From contig NZ_WUUT01000004.1 in NCBI RefSeq assembly GCF_009831575.1, positions 102,138-166,137 on the forward strand: a stretch of 64,000 bases of DNA, given 5' to 3'. The DNA comes from Halovenus carboxidivorans (GTDB lineage Archaea; Halobacteriota; Halobacteria; Halobacteriales; Haloarculaceae). Below, piece after piece: positions 4,761-16,559 of this stretch (positions are counted from its first letter, which is position 1; each line of letters begins with the position of its first letter). The position numbers were made by a program, and so were the translations under genes. Under the pieces are notes generated by a model. The model did not search any database. It was not told where the DNA came from and saw only the letters and a program-made list of their open reading frames with translations.

Positions 4761-5444
4761 TCACCGCTCGGTCCCGACCAGGCCGGTGTCAGTGATGCGG
4801 AACTGCGCCGTCTCGCCGGCCTCCCTGCTGTGGTGTTTCTCCAGCGTCGCCCGGCGGTTGCCGCCACGAAAGCGGTCCAGGCGGAGAATCAGCGCCGACC
4901 AGTGATCCAGCGTATGTCCGCCGAGTCCGCTGGTCGCGTCGCTGTCCGGATCGGTGTAGACCTGGTTGGTAAAGGCGACGGCGAGATCGTACTTCCGGGC
5001 GAGCGAGAGGAGATGCGTGATCTGTCGCCCGACCGCCCGGAGCGCGTCGCCCTCGTCCTGTTCGGTTCGTTCGAGCCGGTAGAACCCGGTCGCGCTGTCG
5101 AGCGCGACGAAATCGACCTGGTCGGCGAACTCGGCGGCGTCCTGGACGGCCTCGCGCTGCTCCTCGAAGTCGTACGCCTCCGTGATGATGATTCGGGAGG
5201 CGATGGTATCGAGGTCGGTGTCGTAGGGCTGGGCGAGTTGTTCGAGGCGTTCGACCGGCATTCCCTCGGTGTCGATATACAGGGCGGATCCGCCGGAAGC
5301 GGCCACCTCGACGGCCGCCGAGAGGACGAGATTGCTCTTGCCGGCGGCCGGCGCGCCGTAGATCTGCGTCGCGGCCCCCCGCTCGAAGCCGCCGCCGAGC
5401 AGCCTGTCGATCGGCTCGCAACCGGTCGGAATCGGGTCTGTCAC
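4761..5444 (-). CDS. radB: DNA repair and recombination protein RadB
   Basis: A 227-residue RecA-fold ATPase without the N-terminal helix-hairpin-helix domain of RadA, which is the RadB pattern. It has the Walker A GAPAAGKS (residues 30-37), ALYIDTEGM after the second strand, a Walker B-like VDFVALDS and the GLGGHTLDHWSALILRL segment. RadB is a euryarchaeal RadA paralogue acting as a recombination mediator. The start is GTG 5444; a TATA-like element on the minus strand (ACATATAACC on the plus strand, 5470-5479) is about 30 bases upstream. Confidence 0.93.
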   Translation of the reverse strand: MTDPIPTGCEPIDRLLGGGFERGAATQIYGAPAAGKSNLVLSAAVEVAASGGSALYIDTEGMPVERLEQLAQPYDTDLDTIASRIIITEAYDFEEQREAVQDAAEFADQVDFVALDSATGFYRLERTEQDEGDALRAVGRQITHLLSLARKYDLAVAFTNQVYTDPDSDATSGLGGHTLDHWSALILRLDRFRGGNRRATLEKHHSREAGETAQFRITDTGLVGTER

Positions 5445-10436: not shown

Positions 10437-11123
10437 GTGCTCGGCGGTACGGACGACGACGCTACGGTCGAGTTTGAGCGGGCGATCAGCGCCGTTCTGG
10501 GCGTGACGCTGATGGTCGCCATCGTGGTCCTTCTCGCCTCCGTCGTCGCCGGGTTCGTCCTCACCTACGACGATCAACTCCGCGAACCGGAGTTCGACAA
10601 CGCGACCGACGGCAGTATCAACCCCTGGTCGAACACCGACGCGTTGCTCGCTCCGAGAGATCCGACCGCCGGCGCCGAGAACGTTCGGTACCGCGTCCGG
10701 ATCGAGATCAAGGACGCGAACATGGAGGGGGACTCGCTCAACGAACTCGACGTGTCGGTGACGACCTCAGACGACATGTTCAGCGGCACGAGCGCGAGTG
10801 ACATCGAGTCCTTCGAGGTCGAGAAGACCGACGGGACGACACTCGACATCGAGAGCGACGTGGACGGCTGGGTCGTCAGCGACGGCGGCAGCAGCCTCCA
10901 GATCCAACTCTCCGGCAGCGAGTACACGAACCCCTCGACGGGAGACGTCATCACGGTCGTCTTCGACGGCGTCGCGAACCCGAACGATCCGGACACCTAC
11001 GACGTCACCGTCGTCCTCAACGAGGGCGAAGACGAACAGAGCGGGGAACTGGAGATTCTCGCCCGGACCGAGTCGATCCGTGCCCGTCCCGCGGAACGCG
11101 CCGGACTGGTCGCGGCTCACTGA
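10437..11123 (+). CDS. Type IV pilin-like protein
   Basis: A 228-residue protein with a class III signal: a short acidic leader, then the hydrophobic stalk RAISAVLGVTLMVAIVV (residues about 19-35), as in archaeal pilins cut by a prepilin peptidase. The remainder is a beta-rich acidic domain with Thr/Ser/Asp runs, probably exposed at the surface. Start is GTG 10437, chosen because a strong TATA-like CTATTAAAAC (10407-10416) lies about 25 bases upstream. The gene ends convergently with the histidine kinase, overlapping by 7 bases. Role: probably adhesion or a minor pilin subunit. Confidence 0.8.
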   Translation: MLGGTDDDATVEFERAISAVLGVTLMVAIVVLLASVVAGFVLTYDDQLREPEFDNATDGSINPWSNTDALLAPRDPTAGAENVRYRVRIEIKDANMEGDSLNELDVSVTTSDDMFSGTSASDIESFEVEKTDGTTLDIESDVDGWVVSDGGSSLQIQLSGSEYTNPSTGDVITVVFDGVANPNDPDTYDVTVVLNEGEDEQSGELEILARTESIRARPAERAGLVAAH

Positions 11124-12808
11124 CTGACATCCGCCGCGACTGTCGCGTTGGGAAAGGAGAGTACGATCTCTCCGTCCTCGAAAGAAATATCACCGCCGAA
11201 GCCGGTCGCCAGCCACCGGGCCGTCCACAGATCGACGCCCGATGTGTGTTCTAACGGTGTCTCCGTCCCGGTCTCGATCACTTCCCGGTCGATCTGTGGC
11301 ACGCCGGGGCCGTTGTCACGGATCGAGATCCGGAGCGGATACGTCCGCTCGGCGTCGTAGTCGGCGCGCAGTTCGACGGCTGGCTGTTCGGAGTCGTTGT
11401 TGTCGAGCGTCCGCTCGATCAGCGACCGAAAGACGAGGTCGAGTTGGTCCGGGGCAACTGGGACGCCGACAGCGACGTCGGCCCTGTACTCGAACTCGGC
11501 GTCGTACTCCGCCCGGAGATCACCGAACAGCCCGGTTATCAGCGGTTCGATCCGCGTCGTCTCGCCCGGGTCGGTGTTCGTTCCGAGCAACTGCGTCGAT
11601 TTGCGCGCTCTGTCGGAGAGTTCTGCCAACTCCTCGGCGGTGTCGGTGATCCGTGCCACTCCATCGAGCGCCGCGGGATCGTCGACACGGTCCTCGATCA
11701 CGTCGGCGTAGCCCATGATGACGGAGAGATCGTTCCGCAGGTTGTGTCGCAGCAGTCTGTCGAGCACGTCCAGCCGCTGTCGTCTCGTCCGGCGGTCGGT
11801 CACGTCCTGGAAGACGGCGGCGTGGCCGAGCGGGTGGCCGTGTCGGTCGCTGAGGTCGGACACCGTCGGCTCGAACAGCACGCGACCGGTCTCCGATTCG
11901 ATCTCGACGATTCGTCTCTCTCGGAGGTCGGCCAGCCCAGCACCGAGCGACCGCTTGAGCGTCTCCCCGACGACGCGGTCCGACCAGTCGAACTCCCGGC
12001 GGGCCGCGGGGTTCAGTTCGACGATCACTCCGTCGGGATCGGTGACGACGACGGGATCGTCGAGTTCCTCCATGATCGTCGCCGGGCCGACGTTTCCGGC
12101 CGCCGGCACCCGACTGAACAGCCCCGGCGGGCCGACCAGTGCGACCGCCGCAACCGTTTTGAACCCGTAGCCGGCGGCGAGGAGGACACCGAACCCGACG
12201 AACGAGGTGGGTTCGAGTTGCAGGGCAAAGAGAATCGCGAGCCACGGGATCGCTCCGAACGCACAGAGAGCGATCCCGGTCGTCGAATCCAGGTGGCCGT
12301 ACCGCTGGAACATCCAGAGGACGAGTCCGGCACCGACGAGGACGAGCCCGCCGGCGTACAGCAGTGCGCCCCACTGGACGAGTTGCAGCACCGTGACGAT
12401 AACCGCAAGCAGGCCGGTCAGTTCCGCCCGGGCTCCGAGACTGAGTTCGGGAATCGCCGCTCCGACGTACAGCGTCAGCGTTGCCGACAGTCCCGCGAGC
12501 ACCGGCACCGACAACAGCCCCGCGATCCACGTCGAAACCAGTGACTCCTGACCGACGTAATCGAGGGCGAACAGCACCCACGGGACCGGAAGGAGCAACG
12601 CGATGCTGATCGTCGTCCCGAGGATCAGAAAAAACCGTTGTGCGGCGAATCCAAACGCGAGATAGATGCCGCCCAGCCCGGCGAGTCCCGCGACGACGGC
12701 GAACAGGTTCGCCGCGGGGGCGTCGACCGACCGCCAGCCGGCGACTGCCGCCGCGAGCAAGAGCACGCCGACACAGAGAAAAATCACTGCGAAGCCGCCG
12801 AAGATCAC
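11117..12808 (-). CDS. Multi-TM histidine kinase with PAS domain
   Basis: Sensor kinase of 563 residues from GTG 12808. Residues 1-225 contain about seven or eight TM helices, 240-340 a PAS-like domain (PVVVTDPDGVIVELNPAAR), 350-400 the dimerisation helix with phospho-acceptor His355 (LLRHNLRND) and 440-556 the ATPase with DNGPGVP (498-504). The N-box is loose (SLIERTLDNND) and the G2 box reads HTSGVDLWTARWL, both commonly variable in haloarchaeal kinases. The longer frame to 12961 is rejected: a TATA-like element (minus strand, 12831-12840) sits about 27 bases before GTG 12808. It diverges from the KaiC-like gene across a region holding a 23-bp direct repeat. Confidence 0.85.
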   Translation of the reverse strand: MIFGGFAVIFLCVGVLLLAAAVAGWRSVDAPAANLFAVVAGLAGLGGIYLAFGFAAQRFFLILGTTISIALLLPVPWVLFALDYVGQESLVSTWIAGLLSVPVLAGLSATLTLYVGAAIPELSLGARAELTGLLAVIVTVLQLVQWGALLYAGGLVLVGAGLVLWMFQRYGHLDSTTGIALCAFGAIPWLAILFALQLEPTSFVGFGVLLAAGYGFKTVAAVALVGPPGLFSRVPAAGNVGPATIMEELDDPVVVTDPDGVIVELNPAARREFDWSDRVVGETLKRSLGAGLADLRERRIVEIESETGRVLFEPTVSDLSDRHGHPLGHAAVFQDVTDRRTRRQRLDVLDRLLRHNLRNDLSVIMGYADVIEDRVDDPAALDGVARITDTAEELAELSDRARKSTQLLGTNTDPGETTRIEPLITGLFGDLRAEYDAEFEYRADVAVGVPVAPDQLDLVFRSLIERTLDNNDSEQPAVELRADYDAERTYPLRISIRDNGPGVPQIDREVIETGTETPLEHTSGVDLWTARWLATGFGGDISFEDGEIVLSFPNATVAADVSQ

Positions 12809-12954: not shown

Positions 12955-14406
12955 ATGACAATGACAGCGCAGGCGCTCCCCCGGATCTCGAGCGGTATCC
13001 CGGGCCTCGATACGATCCTTCGCGGCGGGATCGTCGAGGGGCGGATGTACCTCATCTCGGGAGAACCGGGGACGGGAAAGACACTGCTTGGGATGTCGTT
13101 TCTCGAAGCGGGGCTGGAGGAGGGCGAGACCGCCCTGTTCATCCACGGCGAGGAGTCCCGCCAGGACATCCTGGACAACGGCCGACAGGTCGGAATCGAT
13201 CTGTCGGACGCGGCCTATCTCGATCTCGGTCCGGATTCGGAGTTCTTTCGCGGCGAGCAGTCCTACGAACTGGTCGACCCCCGCGACATCGAGAGTGAGC
13301 GTACGATCGAGCGGATCAGAACCGCCATCGAGGAACGTGATCCGGACCGAATCCTGTTCGATCCGATCACGCAGTTACAGGCCATCGAACCCGACGAGTA
13401 CCAGTACCGCAAGCGACTCGTCTCGTTCATGCGGTTTCTCCAGGGTCAGGGCGTGACCGTCCTCTCGACACAGACGCCGGGGACGAGCACGGACGCGACA
13501 GTTCGCTCGCTCAGCGACGGTGTCATCCGGTTGGAACGGGAGGCGACCGGTCGACGGATCGCCGTCGAGAAACACCGCGGTGTCGGCCAGCGAGACGGTA
13601 CACACGGCCTCGAAATCCGCGAGGCGGGGCTGGAGGTCTATCCGGCGCTGGACCCTGCCGGCACGCAGTCGGTCGATCCAGAACAGCTCTCGACCGGTCT
13701 CGAGGAGTTCGACGCGCTGCTCGGCGGCGGTATCGAGCGCGGCACCGTCACCGTCCTCGCCGGGCCGACCGGCGTCGGCAAGACGACGCTGGCGACGAAA
13801 CTCCTCGAAGCGGCCGCGGCCGACGGCCGGCCGGCCAGCATGTACCAGTTCGAGGAGGCGGTCGAAACCCTCCGGCACCGCTCGGCCGCGCTTGGAATCG
13901 ATCTCCCGACCGACGACGAGCTACGACTCGCCGAAATCGAACCGCTCGCCCTCTCGCCCGAGGAGTTCGCACGTCGGGTCAAGCAGGACGTCGACGACCG
14001 CGGGACGGAGTTGATCGTCATCGACGGCACCGAGGGGTATCAGCTCTCCCTGCACGGCGAGGGGAGAGATGTCGTCCGCTCGCTGCACTCGCTGTGCCGG
14101 TATCTCACCGGGCGAACCGTCTCGGTCGTCCTGATCGATCAGAGCGCACACTCGAGCGCCGCAACCGGACCGACGAGCGAGAACTTCAGCTATCTCGCGG
14201 ACAACCTGGTCGTTCTGAACTACATCGAACGGGAGGGGCGAAAGGAGCGGGTCGCGGGCGTCATGAAGAAGCGACTTGGCGACCACGAGGAGACCGTTCG
14301 ACCGTACACGCTCGACTCCGACGGCATCGTCATGCGGGGACCGGAGACCGACGTCGAGGGGTTCCTGACCGGGACGCCGACCTACAGGCGGAGCGGCGAG
14401 GAATGA
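12955..14406 (+). CDS. KaiC-like double-domain RecA-type ATPase
   Basis: About 483 residues with two KaiC domains. The first has Walker A GEPGTGKT (36-43) and catalytic Glu66-Glu67 (HGEES); the second has GPTGVGKT (270-277) and Glu300-Glu301 (QFEEA). The intact Walker and Glu pairs suggest hydrolysis in both domains. Archaeal KaiC homologues are not proven clocks; several act as signal-transduction ATPases. The start is ATG 12955 or 12961; upstream codons lack family sequence. The stop overlaps the start of the next kinase gene (ATGA at 14403-14406), so the two products are almost certainly made together and may form a complex. Confidence 0.88.
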   Translation: MTMTAQALPRISSGIPGLDTILRGGIVEGRMYLISGEPGTGKTLLGMSFLEAGLEEGETALFIHGEESRQDILDNGRQVGIDLSDAAYLDLGPDSEFFRGEQSYELVDPRDIESERTIERIRTAIEERDPDRILFDPITQLQAIEPDEYQYRKRLVSFMRFLQGQGVTVLSTQTPGTSTDATVRSLSDGVIRLEREATGRRIAVEKHRGVGQRDGTHGLEIREAGLEVYPALDPAGTQSVDPEQLSTGLEEFDALLGGGIERGTVTVLAGPTGVGKTTLATKLLEAAAADGRPASMYQFEEAVETLRHRSAALGIDLPTDDELRLAEIEPLALSPEEFARRVKQDVDDRGTELIVIDGTEGYQLSLHGEGRDVVRSLHSLCRYLTGRTVSVVLIDQSAHSSAATGPTSENFSYLADNLVVLNYIEREGRKERVAGVMKKRLGDHEETVRPYTLDSDGIVMRGPETDVEGFLTGTPTYRRSGEE

Positions 14407-16559
14407 GTCGGACACAGGTACTGATCGACAGCGAGGGTGAGCGGGCGGCTGTCGTGTCCCTTCTCGAAGACCGCTACGAGGTCGTCACCGGCGACGGGGT
14501 CCGACAGGCCGACCTGTACCTGGTCGACGATCACTCCCTCCCCACCTACCGGGAGCAACTCCGCGAACGCAAACGTGCGGACGGGCAGGTCTTCTGTCCG
14601 GTCGTGCTCGTTCGCCGCCGGCGCACGCAGATCGACAGGCAAGCCTTCCACGATCCGACTGCCGGAACGGGCGTGATCGACGAGGTGTTGACCGCCCCGC
14701 TGGACCGGGAGACGGTGATCTGGCGGCTGGACAATCTCCTCACGCGGCGGGATACGACCCGAAACCTCGTGGACAGAAACGCCCAACTCGAACGCCGAGA
14801 ACAGGAACTCGAACGGTACAAGACCTTCGTCGAACAGTCGAGCGACGTGGTCTCGGTGCTGGACGAGGCGGGACACATCGAGTATCAGAGCCCCGCTGTC
14901 GGGCGGGCGCTCGGATACGAGCAGTCGGAACTGATCGGCCAGAACGCCTTCGATTTCGTCCACCCCGACGACCGCGAAGCCCTCTGGGAGACGTACGAAC
15001 AACTGCTCGAGGATCCGGATCGGACGGTGGCGGACGAGGCGCGGTTCCGGACCGCCGACGGCGACTGGCGATGGCTCTCGATCAGGGCCACGAACCAGCT
15101 CGACGGCGAGGTCATCGACGGCATCATCGTCAACAGCCGCGACGTGACCGAGCGCAAGCGCGAGGAGCAGAAACGCCAGCGGACCGTCCGACGGATGACC
15201 GACGCCATCTTGGGGCTCGATTCGGACTGGCAGTTCATCGAGATCAACGAACAGGCGGAGTCGATCCTGGACATCGACGCCGAGACGGTCCTCGGGGAGA
15301 GGATCTGGGACGTTTTCCCCGAGGCGACCGGGACGACATTCTACGACGTGTATCACACCGTCATGGACGAGCGAGAGCCGCGTTCGTTCGAGGAACGGCT
15401 TCGGGAGATGGACATGTGGTTCGAGGTGAACGTCTACCCCGAGCCACACGGCGGCATCTCGATCTACTTCCGGGATATCACCGACCGCAAGGCCCGCGAA
15501 AACCGGATCGAACGGCTGAACCGCGAGTTCGAGACCGTCTTCGAGAACGTTCGTGACGGCCTGTTCCTGCTGGCTGTCGAACCGGACGGTGCGATCATGC
15601 TCCGGCGCTCGAACGACGCCGCCGGTCCCGTACTAGCGGGCGAGCGGCCGGTCGCTCCCGGTGAACCGCTCGACGGCCGCGCCGACCCGGAGCTACTGGA
15701 TAGCTGTCGCACCTGTTTACAGCGCAGAGGGAGCGGCGTGCTCGAACTGGAGACGACGGTCGAGGGGGAGGACTCGACGTTCGACGTGCGACTCTCGCCG
15801 GTCGTCGTCGACGGGACCGTCGAGATGATCGTCGGCTCCGCCCGGGACATCACGGAGCGAAAACGCTACGAGCGGCGGATCGAAGCCCAGCGCGACGATC
15901 TGAAACTGCTCAACCAGATGGTCCGCCACGACATCCGCAACGATCTGCAGGTGATCAAGACCCACGGTGAGCTACTCGCCCAGGAGATCGACCCCGAACT
16001 CGGCTCCTCGGCGGACAGTATCGTCTCGGCGGCGGAGAACGCGATCGTGCTCACCGAGGAGGCTCGGAACCTCTCGGAGGTGATGCTCCGCTCGGGTGAG
16101 ACCCAGCAGCCGACGCCGCTGGCGACGACGCTCAGGACCCAGATCGAACAGGTCCGCTCCGCACACGAGGCTGCGACAATCGAAATCGACGGGACGCTCC
16201 CGGAGGTGGACGTACAGGCCGACGAGATGCTCGACTCTGTCTTCGACAACCTCCTGAAAAACAGCGTCGTCCACAACGACAGCCCCGACCCCCGAACGGT
16301 CGTCTCGGCGGGTGTCGACGGCGAGTACGCGACGGTGCGGATCGCGGACAACGGCCCGGGTATCCCCGACGAACGGAAGGCACGGATCTTCGAGAAGGGG
16401 AGCAAAGGCGGCCACAGCGACGGATCGGGAATCGGGCTCTATCTCGTCGACACGCTCGTCGACCAGTACGGCGGCACCGTCGACATCGAGGACCGGGGCC
16501 CGTCGGCGGAGTCGGACGGCGGTGCGGTCTTCGTCGTTCGGTTGCCGCTGGCCTCGTGA
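14403..16559 (+). CDS. Cytoplasmic histidine kinase with degenerate receiver and three PAS domains
   Basis: A 718-residue soluble kinase. Residues 1-115 look like a receiver: LYLVDDHSLP places an Asp (42) at the phosphorylation position, but the conserved Lys-Pro near the end is Ala98-Pro99 (VLTAPLDRE), so it may be a pseudo-receiver. A charged helix (115-142) leads to PAS1 (about 142-250, VNSRDVTERK), PAS2 (262-362, YFRDITDRK) and a third PAS-like domain (378-486, SARDITERK). The H-box is MVRHDIRNDLQVI (His509), followed by an ATPase domain with DNGPGIP and GSGIGLYLV. It overlaps the KaiC-like gene by four bases. Its output partner is not in the window. Confidence 0.9.
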   Translation: MSRTQVLIDSEGERAAVVSLLEDRYEVVTGDGVRQADLYLVDDHSLPTYREQLRERKRADGQVFCPVVLVRRRRTQIDRQAFHDPTAGTGVIDEVLTAPLDRETVIWRLDNLLTRRDTTRNLVDRNAQLERREQELERYKTFVEQSSDVVSVLDEAGHIEYQSPAVGRALGYEQSELIGQNAFDFVHPDDREALWETYEQLLEDPDRTVADEARFRTADGDWRWLSIRATNQLDGEVIDGIIVNSRDVTERKREEQKRQRTVRRMTDAILGLDSDWQFIEINEQAESILDIDAETVLGERIWDVFPEATGTTFYDVYHTVMDEREPRSFEERLREMDMWFEVNVYPEPHGGISIYFRDITDRKARENRIERLNREFETVFENVRDGLFLLAVEPDGAIMLRRSNDAAGPVLAGERPVAPGEPLDGRADPELLDSCRTCLQRRGSGVLELETTVEGEDSTFDVRLSPVVVDGTVEMIVGSARDITERKRYERRIEAQRDDLKLLNQMVRHDIRNDLQVIKTHGELLAQEIDPELGSSADSIVSAAENAIVLTEEARNLSEVMLRSGETQQPTPLATTLRTQIEQVRSAHEAATIEIDGTLPEVDVQADEMLDSVFDNLLKNSVVHNDSPDPRTVVSAGVDGEYATVRIADNGPGIPDERKARIFEKGSKGGHSDGSGIGLYLVDTLVDQYGGTVDIEDRGPSAESDGGAVFVVRLPLAS

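Follow-up and report, generated by a model that had tools for sequence, protein, structure and literature searches.

KaiC-like ATPases were reportedly described by Makarova et al. in 2017 as hubs of archaeal signalling that are linked to many input and output domains. In proteobacteria, a KaiC and the kinase that follows it, which has a conserved N-terminus, were proposed in 2011 to be a KaiC-interacting pair (PMC3164672), so that the idea of a KaiC with a dedicated kinase is itself prior art. In Haloferax volcanii, CirC, the only double KaiC of the organism, adjoins "fixL" (PMC3941300). According to a 2017 survey, Kai systems, if archaea have them, must rely on an output pathway unlike the cyanobacterial one (PMC5520375), and the authors of a 2025 review knew of no published study of archaeal pseudo-receiver function (PMC12632262). 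The gene pair described here addresses both archaeal Kai output and pseudo-receiver function through one testable partner, a small domain that belongs with one KaiC subfamily and carries swappable outputs. The pair lies in a 64,000-nucleotide stretch of the Halovenus carboxidivorans genome (assembly GCF_009831575.1, contig NZ_WUUT01000004.1, positions 102,138 to 166,137 of the forward strand; the window) and consists of a double-domain KaiC-family ATPase and a histidine kinase that begins with a pseudo-receiver, hereafter the adaptor. The module that the KaiC and the adaptor form is real, widespread, and specific to one KaiC subfamily.

The two genes share an ATGA at the KaiC stop and the kinase start, and the KaiC retains both P-loops and both catalytic Glu pairs, as judged from the sequence motifs; on these points the sequence-only reading of the window was correct. 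That reading was to be abandoned if the pair was not conserved, and a search across haloarchaea finds it conserved. A KaiC match at E ≤ 1e-60 is present in 244 of the 391 genomes of the class Halobacteria that were searched, and an adaptor domain lies downstream at 106 of 110 KaiC loci taken from genomes of this class. The adaptor profile used for the latter count was built iteratively from those same loci, and hence 59 genomes of the class were separately scanned whole. In these, a KaiC lies no more than 3 kb from 52 of 61 adaptor places, and an adaptor is near 46 of 49 KaiC places (in each set, one gene is split into two pieces); the two occur together in 38 genomes, the adaptor alone in 3, the KaiC alone in 1, and neither in 17. 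Nine of the 52 pairs are divergent rather than arranged with the adaptor downstream, and therefore the closeness of KaiC and adaptor outlasts gene order. The Fisher value for this neighbourhood, 7e-11, is only indicative, as the genomes are related. H. carboxidivorans itself has three double KaiCs and three adaptors (E ≤ 1e-6), each adaptor beside a KaiC. The pairing is far from accidental and represents a conserved module.

Relatives of the pair are also found in Lyngbya, Hyella, Acaryochloris, an Anaerolineae bacterium, Brevinematales, and Halothiobacillus, and a weak-pattern search for related loci returned 13, of which 12 have a long KaiC match. Across 117 cyanobacterial genomes, the adaptor is located beside all nine places of this KaiC subfamily, within 1.2 kb in each case, and beside none of the 67 other KaiC places, some of which share a genome with a subfamily KaiC (Fisher value 7e-12, indicative only for the same reason). 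The two groups are separated by score, with the seven full-length subfamily places at 619–758 bits versus ~218–284 bits for the others; the remaining two subfamily places are partial KaiC hits that were assigned by bits per aligned column. Gene neighbourhood thus links the adaptor to a single KaiC subfamily, and its partnership with KaiC in haloarchaea and some bacteria suggests a common, still putative route by which KaiC proteins may pass signals.

The adaptor occupies a region of the kinase in which none of 78 relatives of residues 1–135 has a Response_reg match and no Pfam family recurs consistently. An AlphaFold model based on these 78 sequences (predicted local distance difference test [pLDDT] 91, predicted template modelling score [pTM] 0.84) contains strands at residues 3–7, 26–28, 38–42, 67–72, and 94–98 and a long last helix at 102–134; the helices that would normally follow strands 2 and 4 are missing or poorly predicted. 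The top Foldseek matches of the model are receivers (HupR, E 2.3e-4, TM 0.71), VIA-align superimposes it on HupR, NtrX, and PleD with a Z of 14.1 and 2.1–2.2 Å over 120–127 residues, and a profile from 25 diverse adaptor members leads to PleD with an E of 1.1e-12. The first ~125 residues of the kinase are accordingly modelled as a receiver fold.

The positions needed for phosphotransfer are those established by receiver biochemistry. In the window kinase, the Lys is replaced by Ala, the Thr/Ser position falls in Val-Arg, the acidic pair reads Asp-Ser, and the acceptor Asp, Asp42 at the end of strand 3, is retained. Among 105 relatives aligned with their partners (L017, in which the KaiC is interrupted, was excluded), 90 carry Ala where a receiver has Lys, and 104 carry Pro immediately after it. 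Pro66 never varies, and the acceptor site is occupied by Asp in 83 relatives and by Glu and Gly in 11 each. The sequence-only reading, in which the receiver had lost the usual Lys-Pro, is therefore right about the Lys and wrong about the Pro, and its view of the domain as a pseudo-receiver extends to the whole family. By its residues, the adaptor appears to be a pseudo-receiver that has mostly kept its Asp. The pseudo-receivers of KaiA and CikA were considered as its closest relatives and rejected, as the adaptor profile matched ordinary receivers at E ≤ 1 and no KaiA or CikA chain was among the matches listed; VIA-align also ranks other receivers first, a ranking that excludes nothing. Archaeal proteins listed previously include some of REC-PAS-HisKA type and Bat-like ones whose N-terminal REC is highly diverged (PMC5847659).

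Behind the adaptor, the window protein is a histidine kinase. Pfam detects three PAS stretches, a HATPase domain over the cut-off, and HisKA below it (21.9 versus 26.9 bits), and the sequence contains an H-box (HDIRND) as well as N, G1, and G2 boxes; the H-box His is found in 98 of 98 aligned kinase cores of relatives. From these 98 pairs with a core of at least 150 residues, 65 non-redundant pairs were retained by removal of near-identical KaiCs. The evolutionary distances of KaiC and adaptor correlate with a rho of 0.71, a value reached in 0 of 999 permutations, compared with 0.36 for KaiC and kinase core and 0.22 for adaptor and core. In 10 pair comparisons, the KaiCs are 62–67% and the adaptors 56–59% identical, yet the kinase cores are only 20–25% identical. 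The alignments indicate that the adaptor diverges in step with KaiC and that the part behind it is swapped. That part may be a kinase, in which PAS domains are present or absent (total length 311 to 987 residues in complete proteins; 47 of 98 complete relatives have 311–389 residues, a length that leaves room for adaptor and kinase only), a GAF-BAT-HTH_10 protein (L131, L155, and, by sequence, L132), a GAF-GGDEF-EAL protein (L125), or PAS alone (L093 and, by sequence, L106 and L110). Two adaptor-bearing frames are seen at 11 of 205 loci, some of them overlapping, often as tandem adaptor proteins after one KaiC (L039/L142, L143, L103, L113, and L112 are among them).

Some loci have a third gene, a small stand-alone receiver directly 3′ of KaiC that occurs alone or before the adaptor kinase (L119, L120, L121, L188, L189, L032, L096, L099, L101, L116, L146, L149, and L154). 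Lys-Pro is retained in this receiver, and Pfam scores the example from Lyngbya as Response_reg. Its presence at L096, L099, and L101 accounts for three of the four misses in the count of 110 loci, and the three-gene form occurs in H. carboxidivorans at another locus (L032). Among 158 distinct KaiC genes, 131 are accompanied by the adaptor alone, 7 by the receiver alone, 6 by both, and 14 by neither; 11 of these 14 are of the proteobacterial type and are followed by their own kinase.

The window KaiC matches the Pfam family KaiC (PF06745) in two stretches with an E of 2.6e-62 and 210.7 bits against a cut-off of 26.6, and lies under the equivalog cut-offs for clock KaiC (TIGR02655, 130.1 versus 546.25 bits; NF006799, 222 versus 408 bits). 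In the 105 relatives, the Lys of both P-loops is invariant, the CI Glu pair is Glu in 104 and 105, and the CII pair is Glu in 90 (Asp in 14) and 105. With clock phosphosites numbered on Synechococcus elongatus KaiC, the S431 position is Ser412 (Ser in 103 of 105), the T432 position is Tyr413 (Tyr in 101), and the T426 position is Thr407 (Thr in 101). The window KaiC thus has Ser-Tyr in place of the dual Ser/Thr phosphosite of clock KaiC, and across the family one clock phosphosite appears to be kept and the second replaced. Forty-three columns are conserved in the family yet different in 20 comparison cyanobacterial KaiCs and S. elongatus KaiC; they are spread across both domains and indicate no single docking site. 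A longer KaiC loop, close to where KaiB binds in cyanobacteria, is also present in proteobacterial KaiCs without this adaptor and was for that reason discounted as evidence. An SY profile has been noted before for some KaiCs, rrnAC0131 included (PMC3164672). KaiB itself scored over the cut-off in none of 194 genomes of the class, that of H. carboxidivorans included (three fragments fell below the cut-off), and the S. elongatus control was found.

These observations are best accommodated by a KaiC-centred signalling module in which the pseudo-receiver is, we think probably, a KaiC-dedicated adaptor that couples the state of KaiC to a signalling output. In the proposed mechanism, the ATP/ADP and Ser412-phosphorylation state of a KaiC hexamer would shift with the condition of the cell, and the pseudo-receiver would dock on KaiC. 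Docking would alter kinase autophosphorylation, which may be tuned by the PAS domains as well, and the phosphoryl group would pass to a response regulator, whose gene is adjacent in some relatives. The adaptor of other lineages would instead feed a GGDEF-EAL protein or a transcription regulator of the BAT-HTH type. An ATP-state sensor, one of the functions suggested by the sequence-only reading, is a possible role for the window pair. The broader proposal is that archaea and bacteria share an entire system of KaiC signalling without KaiB, in which this pseudo-receiver serves as the docking adaptor; the system would comprise one KaiC subfamily, in some cases a stand-alone receiver, and outputs that can be exchanged behind the adaptor. 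This proposal is put forward more tentatively and has somewhat less than an even chance. If true, it would add a second general way of reading KaiC to that of KaiB/SasA and provide a first function for archaeal pseudo-receivers.

Several observations weigh against the adaptor model. Nine of the 61 adaptor places in the 59 genomes are not near a KaiC, a natural fusion of KaiC and adaptor occurs at none of 205 loci, and the open reading frames listed between 9000 and 22000 include no obvious response regulator beside the window pair. The test values overstate certainty because the genomes are related and thus not independent; the co-divergence of KaiC and adaptor partly reflects co-inheritance. 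The window KaiC is also a divergent copy, with a best match elsewhere of ~55% identity, and four of five genomes of the same genus match it only at E 1e-92 to 1e-115. The adaptor-like domains in kinases away from any KaiC are a minority (L190, L191, and the nine places mentioned); they may use a KaiC encoded elsewhere or may have left the system.

The signal could instead run from kinase to KaiC. In such an input model, the kinase and its PAS sensors would act on KaiC through the pseudo-receiver and set its ATPase or phosphorylation roughly as KaiA does, with the output carried by KaiC partners. KaiA also has a pseudo-receiver, in which quinone binding affects KaiC stimulation (PMC12632262), and the varied proteins behind the adaptor, the three loci with adaptor and PAS only, and the loci with two adaptor proteins per KaiC would all suit this direction. 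Most partners, however, are complete kinases with intact motifs, the BAT-HTH and GGDEF-EAL partners are outputs by nature, and KaiA is not among the matches listed for the adaptor profile; we regard an input role as unlikely. Less likely still is a true timing system, in which the pair would anticipate day-night cycles as a clock or hourglass without KaiB. The cir genes of H. volcanii do show light-dark expression patterns that are disturbed by cir deletions (PMC3941300), and an hourglass has been suggested for proteobacterial KaiC-kinase pairs (PMC3164672), but KaiB over the cut-off is lacking in the 194 genomes and the second phosphosite is Tyr. A KaiC next to a kinase is in itself no evidence of a circadian clock, and a timing role for the window pair is so far unsupported. 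Operons often persist without binding between their products, but neighbourhood without contact, with co-regulation or shared transfer as the reason for the gene order and kinase dimerisation as the sole role of the pseudo-receiver, is very improbable given that adjacency survives in nine divergent pairs, recurs in cyanobacteria only with this KaiC subfamily, and is accompanied by an adaptor that tracks KaiC better than the kinase core does.

The features of the locus are collected in Table 1. The sequence-only reading also had the kinase diverging from another kinase, and this neighbour is real. Its membrane part is HisKA_7TM-like (Pfam, below the cut-off), and it is without a pseudo-receiver, with no sign seen of membership in the module. 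An intergenic stretch of ~146 bases is common to it and kaiC. A further single-domain KaiC/RecA-type match in the window, at 4953–5432 on the minus strand, is possibly RadB-like.

Table 1. Features of the KaiC-adaptor kinase locus in window coordinates.
Feature	Position	Strand	Remarks
Double-domain KaiC-family ATPase	12955..14406	+	483 residues; ATG 12955 to TGA 14406; alternative start ATG 12961
CI P-loop GEPGTGKT	13060..13083	+	KaiC residues 36-43; Lys invariant in 105/105 relatives
CI catalytic Glu pair	13150..13155	+	KaiC residues 66-67
CII P-loop GPTGVGKT	13762..13785	+	KaiC residues 270-277
CII catalytic Glu pair	13852..13857	+	KaiC residues 300-301; 90 E / 14 D, then 105 E, of 105
Ser412-Tyr413 of KaiC	14188..14193	+	S431-T432 positions of S. 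elongatus KaiC
ATGA overlap, KaiC stop / kinase start	14403..14406	+	
Histidine kinase	14403..16559	+	718 residues: pseudo-receiver, three PAS stretches, HisKA, HATPase
Pseudo-receiver adaptor domain (predicted)	14403..14777	+	~kinase residues 1-125; AlphaFold, Foldseek, VIA-align, profile to PleD
Asp42, phospho-acceptor position, kept	14526..14528	+	Family alignment and predicted fold
Ala98-Pro99, at receiver Lys-Pro position	14694..14699	+	Ala 90/105, Pro 104/105
First PAS domain of kinase	14811..15152	+	Residues 137-250
HisKA region of kinase	15906..16076	+	H-box from residue 509; His invariant in 98/98 aligned cores
HATPase_c of kinase	16230..16553	+	Residues 610-717
Neighbouring divergent membrane histidine kinase	11117..12808	-	Start inferred at GTG ~12808; outside the conserved module

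Among known systems, the pair resembles in outline Rta_04330/Rta_04340 of Ramlibacter, in which a KaiC is followed by a dedicated kinase, KaiB is lacking, and the phosphosite is of the SY type (PMC3164672). The N-terminus of that kinase, Nt_HK, was proposed as a KaiC-binding module and noted to be 19% identical to a receiver, and the window kinase likewise follows its KaiC directly, as described for Nt_HK (PMC3164672). The two differ in that the Ramlibacter-type N-termini are only distantly related to the adaptor and their KaiCs form a separate branch. Eleven aligned N-termini of this type, relatives that do not include Rta_04340 itself, resemble receivers (E 1.5e-5) and match a broad adaptor profile in hhalign with an E of 9e-8 and a probability of 94% (35% with the haloarchaeal profile alone), and a common origin of the haloarchaeal and proteobacterial adaptors seems likely.

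CirC of H. volcanii is also a double KaiC beside a signalling gene (PMC3941300). The printed cirC forward primer has an exact match in 2 of the 391 genomes of the class, in both inside an adaptor-followed KaiC of this family, but neither genome gave a match to the reverse primer; the identity of this KaiC with CirC is therefore likely, not proven. In the same two genomes (L131 and L132), the adaptor is fused to GAF-BAT-HTH_10 rather than to a kinase. GAF-BAT-HTH_10 is a DNA-binding regulator, which would provide a direct route from KaiC to transcription there. A literature search, which left out Makarova et al. 2017, found no description of this adaptor in haloarchaea; new here are the extension to haloarchaea and cyanobacteria, the fold, the subfamily specificity, the swapping of outputs, and the optional third gene.

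The sequence-only reading had likened the pair to CikA, also a pseudo-receiver kinase with a link to a Kai system. In CikA, the pseudo-receiver is C-terminal. The window kinase has its pseudo-receiver at the N-terminus and no GAF among the 12 families found, unlike the GAF-kinase-pseudo-receiver order of CikA. The pseudo-receiver of CikA binds KaiB (PMC12632262), a target over the cut-off in none of the 194 genomes of the class, and the CikA route cannot operate as known because KaiB is not available; on this ground, and on those of the domain order and the missing GAF, the likeness is rejected. SasA is a short kinase with a KaiC-docking domain that is N-terminal, as the adaptor is, and differs in that its domain has a KaiB-like thioredoxin fold (PMC5520375) in place of the receiver fold predicted here. 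By analogy, the pseudo-receiver is best read as working like SasA, in which a kinase is brought to KaiC by its first domain, and not like CikA.

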